A DNA stretch of 64,000 nucleotides from Heliorestis convoluta (lineage in GTDB: Bacteria; Bacillota; Desulfitobacteriia; Heliobacteriales; Heliobacteriaceae): the NCBI RefSeq assembly GCF_009649955.1, contig NZ_CP045875.1, positions 2,461,501 through 2,525,500 of the forward strand. The letters are read 5' to 3'. Positions 3,668 to 50,832 of the stretch are shown here, one piece after another. The notes beneath the pieces were generated by a model that saw only the letters and a list, made by a program, of their open reading frames with translations, did not search any database and had not been told where the DNA came from. The position numbers and the translations under genes are program-made. Each line of letters begins with the position of its first letter. The first letter of the stretch is position 1.

Positions 3668-4639
3668 GTGAAACTATCTCAGATAAGGGGTCAAGAGCGA
3701 GCCATTGAACAGTTGCAAAAAGCCCTTTTACAGCAGCGTATTGTTCATGCTTATCTTTTTTCTGGGCCCCCTGGCGTAGGGAAAATGAGGACGGCTCGAG
3801 CTTTTGCGCAGTCCATTCTTTGCTTGAACATAGAAGGCGTCGATGCTTGTCAGGTTTGCTCTTCTTGTTTACAGTTTGTCAGCTCAAATCATGCAGCTTT
3901 TTACGATATCGAGCCTGATGGCACAACGATTAAGATAGAACAAATTCGAAAGTTACAGAAATGGCTTCGCTATCGTCCCTATGTAGGTCAATACAGAGTG
4001 GTTTTACTACAGAAAGCAGAATTGATGCAAGAGCCAGCGGCCAATGCGCTGTTGAAGGTGTTAGAAGAACCGCCTAACTCTACAATTTTTATTCTTGTAT
4101 CCAACCGGGGTCATGGTCTTTTACCGACCATTTTATCACGTTGTATGCCTGTCTATTTCAATCTCTTACCGGATCTCGTGATTGCTGACTATCTTCAGGA
4201 AAAAGGCATCACGAATGAGAAGATTCCTTTATTTACTTTGCTAGCTCGAGGTTGCCTCTTACAAGCAATGGAATTGGCGGAAGGAGGTTTACCAGAAGGT
4301 CGAGAAAAAGCAATCTATATTCTAGAAAGAATCACTCAAATGAGTGAAAGGGATATATTTGCTATGGCCGATGAATGGGATAAGAATAAAGAAGGTCTCA
4401 CAGAACTCTTCGATTACTTGGCTCTGTTATTGCGGGATCTGCTCTTGTTGCGAGAAGGTCTTACTCATATGCTCATTAACCAAGATCAAAACTGGGGGAA
4501 TATGGCCTATCAAAGCAATCAATTGCTCTTGGCCATGGACCATGTCCTAGAAGGGCGTCGTAATTTAGAAAGCAATGCCAGTGCCAAGTTGATTTTTGAA
4601 GATTTGATGATAAAGTTAGGGAAAGCCATGAAATCATGA
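3668..4639 (+). CDS. holB: DNA polymerase III, delta' subunit
   Basis: Clamp-loader subunit of the replicative polymerase, 323 residues. Seen in order are the AAA+ region with GPPGVGKM (about residues 33-40), a four-cysteine zinc module (Cys52, 61, 64, 67), and KVLEEPPNSTIFILVS followed by LSRC, the SRC motif. The Walker A has Met where Ser/Thr normally follows Lys, consistent with a delta' subunit that does not hydrolyse ATP. GTG start with AAAGG about 8 bases upstream. It lies between tmk and ricT as in Bacillus. Confidence 0.94.
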   Translation: MKLSQIRGQERAIEQLQKALLQQRIVHAYLFSGPPGVGKMRTARAFAQSILCLNIEGVDACQVCSSCLQFVSSNHAAFYDIEPDGTTIKIEQIRKLQKWLRYRPYVGQYRVVLLQKAELMQEPAANALLKVLEEPPNSTIFILVSNRGHGLLPTILSRCMPVYFNLLPDLVIADYLQEKGITNEKIPLFTLLARGCLLQAMELAEGGLPEGREKAIYILERITQMSERDIFAMADEWDKNKEGLTELFDYLALLLRDLLLLREGLTHMLINQDQNWGNMAYQSNQLLLAMDHVLEGRRNLESNASAKLIFEDLMIKLGKAMKS

Positions 4640-46991: not shown

Positions 46992-47430
46992 CTTGCTTTC
47001 CTCTTGCGTACAGGGGAATACATAGCGATAGTTTTATTGATTAGTAAAGATGCCCCTACGGGGGCTCTTTTTTGTTCCCCTTAGAACGTGGAAATATAAT
47101 CCTGAAAAATCGTTAGACCATGAGAAACAACCGCTTAAAGTCTAAAAATACTGAATACGTTGCAGCACTTTTGTTAATGGTCTATACATAAAATAAATAA
47201 CGTGTTATTATACCATCGCGGGAAAATTTTATCTCATTAGGCATAGCATAGACCAAGCCTGTATATGTAGATTTTCGCTGCACAATGAACTTTACTCAAC
47301 ACACTGCTACCCCGGCGATCCGTTTATTCCACATTGTGTAACGAAAATGCGGGTAATGGAGGTTGCAGCTATGTAATATGGGAGCATGAAGAGTAGTTCA
47401 AGAACTTTACTATCAAAAGGAGGGGACATC
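46992..47430. other. Terminator of petJ and upstream region of the pet operon
   Basis: A GCCCC-TACG-GGGGC hairpin with a T-run (47052-47072) ends petJ. The rest of the 440 bases has no gene. It holds an AATAAC-GT-GTTATT inverted repeat (47196-47209) and ATTGTGTAAC (47333-47342), the latter also seen before bchM. I see no confident promoter. Confidence 0.6.
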
Positions 47431-47649
47431 ATGAAAGCACCAGATACTAAGGCGGGTACGATCAACTTGATCTTTCTTTCTGTCATAGCCCTGGTACTGC
47501 TTGGGCTCATGTTTCGAAGTTTCATGATGGGCGATTACGACGGAGCAACCATTTATATGGGCTTTTTGTTCATCAACTTTGGACTGGCTCTCTACACCTT
47601 TCGAGTGGCAGTCTTTGATGGTACTGGTTATAAGGAGGTCAAAGAATAA
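47431..47649 (+). CDS. Small two-helix membrane protein, first gene of the pet operon
   Basis: A 72-residue protein I do not recognise. It has two hydrophobic segments (about residues 10-29 and 38-57), short charged ends and no cysteine or heme motif. ATG 47431 has a perfect AAAGGAGG. Its stop overlaps the petC start (TAATG), so it is translated together with the Rieske protein. By analogy with the small single-helix Pet subunits of plastid b6f complexes, it may be a small subunit or assembly factor. This is inference from position alone. Confidence 0.75.
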   Translation: MKAPDTKAGTINLIFLSVIALVLLGLMFRSFMMGDYDGATIYMGFLFINFGLALYTFRVAVFDGTGYKEVKE

Positions 47650-48101
47650 TGGACAACAATGTATCTAGGAGGAAGTTTCTGGGTGGTTTAATCGCTGTGC
47701 CCACAGTAGCTGCACTGGCAGCACCATTGGCGGCTGTAGGTGCTTATGTATATCCTCCAGATTCATTTTTACAACCACCAAAGCCCAAAAAAGTAGGTAA
47801 CATTGCCGACTTAAAACCTTGGGATTCCATTCAATTTGGCTACAACCAAGCACCTGCTATGGTAATTAAGACAGACACCGATGATGTTGTAGCGTATTAT
47901 CTAAAGTGCACCCATCTTGGTTGTACTGTAGAAGTTCCACAAGGCAATTTAGATGGACAACAACTGGTTTGTCCTTGTCATGGTGGATATTTTGATCCTC
48001 TGGGCAATAACACAGGTGGTCCACCACCGACGCCTCTGAAGCAACTGGCCGTCACCATCGATGAGAACGGCGATATTATCGTTGAAGAAAGGATGGCGTA
48101 A
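47649..48101 (+). CDS. petC: Rieske iron-sulfur protein of the cytochrome bc complex
   Basis: Transfers electrons from menaquinol to the cytochrome c subunit. A twin-arginine signal (SRRKFLGG) and uncleaved N-terminal helix lead to a soluble Rieske domain with CTHLGC (Cys87, His89) and CPCHGG (Cys108, His111), plus disulphide Cys92/Cys110. A Pro-rich loop GPPPTPL closes the fold. Length (150 residues) is normal for heliobacteria. Co-translated with the preceding gene and two bases before petB. Confidence 0.97.
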   Translation: MDNNVSRRKFLGGLIAVPTVAALAAPLAAVGAYVYPPDSFLQPPKPKKVGNIADLKPWDSIQFGYNQAPAMVIKTDTDDVVAYYLKCTHLGCTVEVPQGNLDGQQLVCPCHGGYFDPLGNNTGGPPPTPLKQLAVTIDENGDIIVEERMA

Positions 48102-48103
48102 GG

Positions 48104-48745
48104 ATGAACTGGCTAGAGGAACGTTTACCGGGTATTGGCAAAGTAGTGAAAGATGTTAAAGAACACCCTGTCCCATCTCACACACTGAATGTTTTTTACT
48201 GCTTAGGTGGATTGACGCTTGTTGCATTTATTGTACAAGTTGTGACTGGTGTTTTCCTCGCAATGTACTACAAGCCTACACCAGAAGCTGCTTTTGCCAG
48301 CGTTCAAATGATTACCAATGAAGTTCGCTTTGGTTCTATGATGCGCTCTATCCATCACTGGGCTGCTAACTTCATGGTTATCTTCTGCTTCTTGCATATG
48401 ATGAGAGTCTACTATACAGGAAGCTTTAAGAAGCCCCGTGAAATGAACTGGGTTGCTGGATCTTTCTTGTTTATCCTAACCATTGTTATGGCCTTTACAG
48501 GCTACATACTGCCCTATGAGCAACTGTCTTATTGGGGTGCTGTTATCGGTGTTGAAACAGCGGGAGCTTTACCTGTTGTTGGTGAAATGACGAAAATCAT
48601 GATGCAGGGCGGTATTACCGTTTCTGAAGAGATGCTTAGTCGTTTTTACGTGCTTCATGTTCTTGTCCTACCAGCAATTACAATTGCCTTTTTAGTAGCT
48701 CACTTTATTATGATTCGTGTTCAAGGCATCTCTGATCCGATGTAA
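48104..48745 (+). CDS. petB: Cytochrome b6
   Basis: A four-helix membrane protein of 213 residues. The b-heme ligands are His84/His98 and His185/His200, with the x13 and x14 spacing of b6. Cys33 in FYCLGG is the residue that binds the extra covalent heme ci in b6-type proteins. Together with petD it is the split cytochrome b of the green-lineage type. ATG 48104 directly follows petC. Confidence 0.97.
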   Translation: MNWLEERLPGIGKVVKDVKEHPVPSHTLNVFYCLGGLTLVAFIVQVVTGVFLAMYYKPTPEAAFASVQMITNEVRFGSMMRSIHHWAANFMVIFCFLHMMRVYYTGSFKKPREMNWVAGSFLFILTIVMAFTGYILPYEQLSYWGAVIGVETAGALPVVGEMTKIMMQGGITVSEEMLSRFYVLHVLVLPAITIAFLVAHFIMIRVQGISDPM

Positions 48746-48757
48746 GGGGGGACGAAA

Positions 48758-49153
48758 GTGGAAAAGCAAAAAAAGTTTACGATACCTTTTATGCCGACGC
48801 ATATTACTACTGAAGCGGCTGTAACCATGGTTTTTATTGGGGTCTTGTTGATTATGTCTGGTGCTTTCCCCAAATTGATGCACGCACCAGCAGATCCGCT
48901 CGTAACGCCGATGAACTTAAAGCCTGAATGGTATATTCTTTGGGGCTATGCCATCCTTGAAATGGTACCGAATAAACTGTTAGGCGTAATATTGCCTGGG
49001 GTCTTGCTTGGTCTGTTAGTTGTTGTGCCATGGTTAGAGAGAAACCCTCATCGTCATCCGAAGAAAAGGGTTTTTGCTGTTACTGTCTTCTCTGCCATGA
49101 TTGTTCTCGTTGCCATATTGACCTACATCGGCGCAACTATTCAGTTTGGATAA
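48758..49153 (+). CDS. petD: Cytochrome bc complex subunit IV
   Basis: The C-terminal part of a split cytochrome b, 131 residues with three membrane helices. The quinol-site motif PEWY is present (KPEWYILWGYAILE). GTG 48758 follows AGGGGGGAC. Its fusion partner in bc1-type proteins is separate here, as in b6f. Confidence 0.96.
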   Translation: MEKQKKFTIPFMPTHITTEAAVTMVFIGVLLIMSGAFPKLMHAPADPLVTPMNLKPEWYILWGYAILEMVPNKLLGVILPGVLLGLLVVVPWLERNPHRHPKKRVFAVTVFSAMIVLVAILTYIGATIQFG

Positions 49154-49206: not shown

Positions 49207-49908
49207 TTGGACAACCGTAAATTAATTTTGTTTGCTTCATCAGCCCTCCTGCTGGTTGGGTTGCTGATGACCCCGCTTTTGCAAGCAAAGGGTCAGGACT
49301 TTCAGGGTTCTCAGATCTATAAGACCTATTGTTATGAGTGTCATGGCGTAGAAGGTCGTGGTATTGATGGGCTACGCACAGCCACATTGAACAATGAAGG
49401 TTTCTTAGAAGTAGCTGACGATGATTATTGGGAGAAAACGATTCGCTTAGGTCGAGTTGTTCATGAAATGCCTGGCTTTGGACCGGAAGTTATCACCGAT
49501 AGACAACTAACCTATCTAGTTGACTATATCCGCTCATGGGCTCCTAATGTGCAACCTATAGAATTCAGTGATGAGGTTATTGCAGGAGATCCTGTGAAAG
49601 GGAAAGAATACTATGGTATGCTTTGTGCGGCCTGTCATGGACCGCATGGAGAAGGCCTGCTAGGACCGTCATTGACAGACCCAGCATTTTTAGCTTCTGC
49701 GAGCGACAACTTTATTTTGCAATCTACGATCAAAGGTCGCCCAGACACAACGATGCCTGGTTATCCGGATTCACAGGATCTACGCAATGTCGTTGCATTT
49801 CTCCGTACTTTTGAAGTGGAATTAGAAGATGGAGAACTGCCTGAAGATCTAGTTCTACCAGGGCAGTTTGTAGAAGAAGAGACTGAAGATGCTGAAGAAG
49901 CACAATAA
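49207..49908 (+). CDS. petA: Diheme cytochrome c of the heliobacterial bc complex
   Basis: The heliobacterial complex has a diheme cytochrome c in place of cytochrome f or c1. The 233-residue protein has an N-terminal membrane anchor (residues 6-27) and two cytochrome c modules: CYECH (42-46) with Met88 in HEMPGFG, and CAACH (140-144) with Met183 in TTMPGYP. The halves are similar, indicating a duplication. The tail is acidic. TTG 49207 follows GCGAGGAGG. Last core gene of the pet operon. Confidence 0.94.
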   Translation: MDNRKLILFASSALLLVGLLMTPLLQAKGQDFQGSQIYKTYCYECHGVEGRGIDGLRTATLNNEGFLEVADDDYWEKTIRLGRVVHEMPGFGPEVITDRQLTYLVDYIRSWAPNVQPIEFSDEVIAGDPVKGKEYYGMLCAACHGPHGEGLLGPSLTDPAFLASASDNFILQSTIKGRPDTTMPGYPDSQDLRNVVAFLRTFEVELEDGELPEDLVLPGQFVEEETEDAEEAQ

Positions 49909-49960: not shown

Positions 49961-50221
49961 ATGATGAGAAAACTACTGAATTTCTTATTATACTGGAGGA
50001 ATTTTATTTTCTTATTATTCTATGCCCTCCTTGCTGCTTTTTCTTTTGATCTGGTTATGTCCTATTTTAGGCGATGGTTGCAAGGGGAAAGTGATAGTCT
50101 TTTCTTTGCATTGCTTGGATTGGGCGGTTTGATTGTCGGTTGTTATGGTCTTATGCGTTTTATATACCATCAGGATAAAAAGCGAGGTAGATTAAAACGA
50201 CAAATCCGTTGGTTAGAGTAA
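49961..50221 (+). CDS. Small two-helix membrane protein after petA
   Basis: An 85-86-residue protein, unknown to me. It has aromatic-rich helices at about residues 10-34 and 48-68 and a strongly basic C-terminal tail (KKRGRLKRQIRWLE) likely on the inside. ATG 49961 or 49964 follows GAGGAGGGG. It starts 52 bases after petA without an obvious terminator, so it may be the last gene of the pet operon. It is a second candidate small subunit or assembly factor of the complex. Confidence 0.72.
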   Translation: MMRKLLNFLLYWRNFIFLLFYALLAAFSFDLVMSYFRRWLQGESDSLFFALLGLGGLIVGCYGLMRFIYHQDKKRGRLKRQIRWLE

Positions 50222-50358
50222 TTGCTTCCCAACGGATTGTGAGCAGCTAACGCATCTGTTTTTTTGTCGCCTCTTCGGACCACGGATCCAATTCTGTATA
50301 CTTTATTTTAATTAACTAAGTGCGAAATTACGCGTTAGCAATATCTAGGGGGTCTGAG

Positions 50359-50832
50359 ATGGTTGCAGTTAGAGATCTATTTAAATTAGTGGCGGCGCTT
50401 TTGATATGTCTATATGCTAGTTGGCTGGGAGCAAAGTATACATTATCCTCCTTTGTATGGTATCACAACTTGAACAAGCCCTGGTTTAATCCTGCGGCTC
50501 ATACCTTTGAACCTGTATGGCTTATTCTTTATACGATGATGAGCCTGTCGCTTTTTTTAGTATGGAGACAAAGTCCTCAAAAAGATGTGCGCTTTGCTCT
50601 ATTCTTATTTGGTCTGCAGCTCGCTCTTAACGTGATGTGGTCTTGGATATTTTTTGGCCTACAATCCCCATTTTGGGCAACTGTCGAGATTGTGCTTCTG
50701 ATGTTTGTGATCGGAGTCACGATTTTTTACTTTTACCGCTATTCAAAGTGGGCAGCTATTTTACTGGTCCCTTACTTCTTAAGAACAGGTTATGAGGCCC
50801 TTTTGACATTTCTAATTTGGAGAATGAATTAG
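50359..50832 (+). CDS. tspO: TspO/MBR tryptophan-rich membrane protein
   Basis: A 157-residue, five-helix protein of the TspO/peripheral benzodiazepine receptor family, which binds porphyrins and helps control tetrapyrrole flow in phototrophs. WYHNLNKPWFNPAAHTFEPVWLILYTMM matches the family core; WSWIFFGLQSPFWATVEI corresponds to the WNxxFF region. ATG 50359 follows AGGGGG. It sits between the pet operon and bchJ, which supports a tetrapyrrole-related role. Confidence 0.9.
   Translation: MVAVRDLFKLVAALLICLYASWLGAKYTLSSFVWYHNLNKPWFNPAAHTFEPVWLILYTMMSLSLFLVWRQSPQKDVRFALFLFGLQLALNVMWSWIFFGLQSPFWATVEIVLLMFVIGVTIFYFYRYSKWAAILLVPYFLRTGYEALLTFLIWRMN

Follow-up and report, generated by a model that had tools for sequence, protein, structure and literature searches.

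The window, the 64,000-nucleotide stretch of the Heliorestis convoluta genome (3,218,981 bases in a single contig) analyzed here, contains in order petJ, a terminator-like hairpin, petX, petC, petB, petD, petA, a second small membrane open reading frame (ORF), and tspO. We use the name petX for the ORF at positions 47431–47649 (plus strand), whose 72-amino acid product, PetX, has two transmembrane (TM) segments by hydropathy. The gap between petJ and petX holds the terminator-like hairpin and a T run (47052–47075, plus strand; hairpin 47052–47065), which separate petX from petJ and make it the first gene of the pet operon. The genes that follow on the plus strand encode a Rieske iron–sulfur protein with the twin-arginine motif SRRKFLGG (petC, 47649–48101), cytochrome b6 (petB, 48104–48745), subunit IV as identified by sequence comparison (petD, 48758–49153), and a diheme cytochrome c with two CxxCH motifs (petA, 49207–49908). 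Directly 3′ of petA lies a second small two-TM protein of 86 amino acids (49961–50221, plus strand), which occupies the same place in all eight heliobacteria with petB and is found in no other of 61 relatives, making it a candidate partner of the diheme cytochrome. A TspO/MBR family protein (50356–50832, plus strand) lies 3′ of the pet operon in heliobacteria. A plasmid search returned no match.

The petX ATG at 47431 is preceded by a strong ribosome-binding site, AAAGGAGGGG (about 47416–47425, plus strand), and sequence comparison places a purine-rich site 5′ of petX in all heliobacteria. A longer in-frame ORF opens at 47386, but it lacks a ribosome site, and an antisense ORF at 47307–47525 was considered spurious. 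The petX stop codon (TAA, 47647–47649) overlaps the petC start within a TAATG sequence (47647–47651, plus strand), such that the last A of the petX TAA is the A of the petC ATG and the two genes share one base, as the sequence-only reading had noted. That reading went on to take the overlap as translational coupling that implies stoichiometric production of PetX and the Rieske protein. That conclusion is unwarranted, because a separate consensus ribosome-binding site for petC, AAGGAGGT (47632–47639, plus strand), lies inside the last petX codons; ribosomes can probably start on petC directly, and its translation does not have to be coupled to that of petX. The site is coded by the terminal petX codons Tyr-Lys-Glu-Val, its own eight bases encoding K-E-V, and conservation of the heliobacterial PetX C-terminus is therefore dictated in part by the petC signal.

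PetX is 58–92% identical to its heliobacterial relatives. Comparison with the nearest species gave a pN/pS of 0.042/0.480 and comparison with a further genome (G005) a dN/dS of about 0.1; petX is under strong purifying selection as a whole protein. Together with the retention of its position in 21 genomes, these data indicate a real gene rather than a chance ORF. A single-sequence AlphaFold2 model (mean pLDDT 84) contains two long helices, residues 6–32 and 36–64, packed as a helical hairpin. The earlier proposal of a real two-helix membrane protein that opens the pet operon is thus borne out by its ribosome site, hydropathy, model, selection, and upstream terminator-like hairpin. An alignment of 21 members defines a family of 70–81 amino acids with two TM segments, in which position 29 is Arg or Lys, position 44 is Gly, position 57 is aromatic, and position 58 is Arg or Lys in 21 of 21 sequences; position 31 is aromatic in 19 of 21 (F in the window protein) and L in the other two. 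These residues form a motif at the end of helix 1 ([RK]29-x-[WFY]31), a glycine within helix 2, and an aromatic–basic pair at the end of helix 2 ([FWY]57-[RK]58). In nearly all members basic residues are more numerous in the two tails combined than in the loop, and both ends of PetX are probably cytoplasmic, an orientation toward which the charges point weakly because the tails are also acidic and the positive-inside signal from loop and tail is slight.

PetX and 17 relatives, scanned against Pfam and NCBIfam, gave only sub-threshold matches to unrelated membrane families, the best Pfam resemblance being to Phage holin family 2 (13.8 bits against a gathering cut-off of 32). Searches of the PDB with the protein sequence and with a profile found no meaningful match, and a fold search with the predicted hairpin retrieved generic hairpins only, with E above 1. 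Whether PetX is undescribed, as had been claimed, is uncertain: no family model was found, and no description of PetX turned up in the literature searched, but the photosynthesis gene cluster of Heliobacillus mobilis reportedly has a gene called petX in the corresponding position. Occurrence of that gene in the nos and nap operons of other Bacillota is not known to have been described. A review of the heliobacterial Rieske/cytb complex reportedly allows for additional small subunits.

Several known systems invite comparison. The PetG, PetL, PetM, and PetN proteins of cytochrome b6f are, like PetX, small, hydrophobic, and associated with a complex of split cytochrome b6/subunit IV and a Rieske protein, and a peripheral packing role is likely in both cases. 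However, they are single-helix proteins, whereas PetX has two helices within 70–81 residues and is encoded with petC; PetX has no Pfam match to any of the four, and the H. convoluta genome contains no PetG above cut-off. The Bacillus menaquinol:cytochrome c reductase QcrABC resembles the pet operon in being a Bacillota operon for a split cytochrome b6 and a Rieske protein, but it belongs to another petB clade, carries its cytochrome c as a fusion with the subunit IV part, and has no PetX 5′ of the Rieske gene.

Among 61 relatives, petX lies directly 5′ of petC in each of the eight petB-containing heliobacteria, in line with the expectation that homologues should always adjoin petC; the refuting outcome named by the sequence-only reading, a lack of homologues in other heliobacteria, did not occur. 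A ninth member of the heliobacterial family (G003; 2.1 Mb, 87% complete) has no petX and is not an exception to the rule because petB is also missing; it may be non-phototrophic, or its genome incomplete. The first matches outside heliobacteria were weak (E about 0.006–0.008, two genomes), and both were directly 5′ of the Rieske gene. A profile built from these sequences identified PetX in 13 genomes beyond the eight heliobacterial ones, all from non-heliobacterial Bacillota and always directly 5′ of petC, for a total of 21 genomes in eight families.

The presence of PetX coincides with one type of petB. At class level, PetX was found in 15 of 83 genomes, exactly the 15 with the top-scoring petB group among the 61 of these genomes in which petB was scored. 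At phylum level, the 12 true matches among 398 genomes were exactly the 12 with a high-scoring petB. Co-occurrence with the complex core is thus strict at both levels (15/15 and 12/12). One additional phylum-level match (G189, E 7e-4) was discarded as chance, since it contains a stop and its genome has no petB. The petB of PetX genomes scored about 354 bits or more in the phylum search and the next petB 288, a gap that is not by itself independent evidence because some of the sequences behind the petB profile came from genomes that bear PetX. A petB tree is a better test of the co-occurrence. In a tree of 48 sequences, with outgroups drawn from a petB search of genome contigs that returned mostly Bacilli and other petB clades and no heliobacteria, the PetX-bearing petB (20 sequences used) are monophyletic, set apart from the rest by a branch supported at 97/96, and the presence of PetX requires one change. 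Scanned members of the family score at least 87 bits against the 21-member PetX profile, and every ORF of 125 petB loci without PetX scores at most 10.3 bits; these loci, from Bacilli, Chloroflexota, and other petB clades, contain no recognizable PetX.

Other small proteins sit in the corresponding place. A Methanoperedens two-TM protein of 91 amino acids lies immediately 5′ of the Rieske gene (locus L080, positions 4180–4455; also L088, L089, and L091), and in the midpoint-rooted tree the PetX clade has the Methanoperedens petB clade as its sister group, though the 91-amino acid protein has no detectable homology to PetX. A different petB clade, which includes the second Carboxydocella complex, has an unrelated two-TM protein of 64–65 amino acids 5′ of its Rieske gene (L086, 4235–4432; L168, 705–899). 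Like PetX, the 91-amino acid Methanoperedens ORF and the 65-amino acid ORF of the second Carboxydocella petB are directly 5′ of a Rieske–petB pair, but hhalign probabilities against PetX of 1.4 and 0.2, respectively, give no indication of homology. It is conceivable, though rather unlikely in our estimation, that PetX is the founding example of a set of two-helix subunits, these two proteins included, that take up one and the same position by the Rieske anchor across several subtypes of menaquinol Rieske/cytochrome b complex; such subunits would be a general component that has escaped notice, and their inheritance or recruitment would not have depended on the terminal acceptor.

The order petX–petC–petB–petD is constant across the 21 genomes of eight families, and petX and petC overlap by 1–20 nt in 20 of the 21 and abut (0 nt) in the remaining one. 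What lies beside this cassette changes. In heliobacteria the partner is the diheme petA. In Desulfitobacteriaceae-type genomes and further families, monoheme cytochromes c flank the cassette on both sides, and wherever the sequence stretch extended far enough a protein of 627–634 amino acids is found nearby; the one tested is a Sec-dependent clade II NosZ (TIGR04246, 905 bits; cut-off 625). A published comparison places Rieske, cytochrome b, and unknown-function genes in the nos clusters of Desulfosporosinus and Desulfitobacterium (PMC11096178). In Carboxydocella thermautotrophica (G131) and three further genomes, the cassette is accompanied by NapG/NapH-like ferredoxin proteins, a molybdopterin enzyme, or both, and the two molybdopterin enzymes tested are NapA (TIGR01706, 1068 and 1102 bits; cut-off 930). 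The constancy of the cassette while its partner changes argues that PetX is tied to the quinol-oxidizing core rather than to photosynthesis or to any one acceptor. Judged by gene content, PetX follows that core through operons for photosynthesis, nitrous oxide respiration, and nitrate respiration.

We propose, with a probability of roughly 0.6, that PetX is a small accessory structural subunit of one menaquinol-oxidizing Rieske/cytochrome b6–subunit IV subtype, in which it would stabilize the region of the Rieske anchor and cytochrome b6. The earlier suggestion of a small subunit of the heliobacterial bc complex stands as a good candidate, but “heliobacterial” is too narrow, as PetX also accompanies this petB clade in the nos and nap operons of other Bacillota. 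From the conservation, gene position, co-occurrence, selection, and predicted hairpin described above, we infer that PetX belongs to the complex, lies in the orientation given below, touches the Rieske anchor, and has a stabilizing role. PetX would be made just ahead of the Rieske protein, presumably from the same mRNA, and would insert as a two-helix hairpin with both ends probably in the cytoplasm; helix 1 would end near the outer face at [RK]29-x-[WFY]31 and helix 2 near the cytoplasmic face at [FWY]57-[RK]58. The hairpin would most likely pack alongside cytochrome b6 and the anchor helix of the Rieske protein, where it may stabilize the Rieske subunit or organize boundary lipids. As part of the quinol-oxidizing core, it would be retained when the acceptor is swapped among diheme cytochrome c, NosZ, and NapA. 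Other petB clades function without a recognizable PetX, and the basic chemistry therefore does not require this protein.

A dedicated assembly factor would leave the same genomic pattern, and small membrane proteins encoded next to the genes of a complex are often such factors. PetX might hold cytochrome b6 or the Rieske precursor and then leave instead of remaining as a permanent subunit, acting during cofactor insertion, Tat export, or membrane release of the Rieske protein. The location of petX directly 5′ of a Rieske gene with a twin-arginine motif, the conserved overlap, and the clade-wide co-occurrence all fit this explanation, which accounts for the genomic data almost as well as a subunit does. 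We nevertheless regard it as improbable, if still a serious candidate: the cytochrome b6 and Rieske clients are also found in clades without PetX, PetX has no homology to a known factor in the Pfam and NCBIfam scans, and constant association with the core together with overlap with a structural gene would be more usual for a subunit. A third explanation concerns the RNA more than the protein. The petC ribosome site lies within petX in codons that are conserved, and it encodes the YKEV tail of the heliobacterial proteins, as expected if petX were mainly a leader whose own translation sets that of petC and whose product is of little importance; yet purifying selection spans the whole hairpin, and non-heliobacterial members keep the TM-boundary residues and not the YKEV tail, which is confined to heliobacteria. 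These observations make a mere leader extremely improbable.

PetX could also be the separately encoded counterpart of a domain known from elsewhere. The actinobacterial Rieske protein QcrA has three TM helices, and its N-terminal region (QcrA_N), like PetX, brings two extra TM helices to a Rieske protein, so that PetX plus PetC would correspond to QcrA by simple helix arithmetic (2 + 1 = 3). Two Mycobacterium smegmatis supercomplex chains ranked second and third in the Foldseek search (E above 1), and VIA-align gave chain 9qef_E a Z of 8.3, within the level stated for common helical arrangements; the 9qef chains may or may not be QcrA. However, PetX is a separate gene, the Pfam QcrA_N model (PF19297) matches none of 17 members at E 0.1 and does not match petX when searched against the H. 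convoluta genome, and a helical hairpin is so common a shape that PetX resembles QcrA_N only as any hairpin would. We consider this correspondence very unlikely and retain an accessory structural subunit as the preferred explanation.

What this analysis adds is the breadth of the PetX family, together with the findings that it matches one petB clade exactly and that it does not depend on the partner module. From the genomic data, PetX is probably a component of this type of quinol-oxidizing complex that has gone unnoticed. We know of no solved structure of the heliobacterial bc complex, and a search of solved Rieske proteins found no close match; PetX offers a concrete target for structural and deletion work in heliobacteria and in N2O-reducing Desulfitobacterium. 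A core-linked small subunit common to phototrophs and to N2O and nitrate respiration operons would mark one lineage of the complex, and its distribution suggests that the module heliobacteria use for cyclic photosynthesis is a clostridial respiratory one that they either recruited or share.
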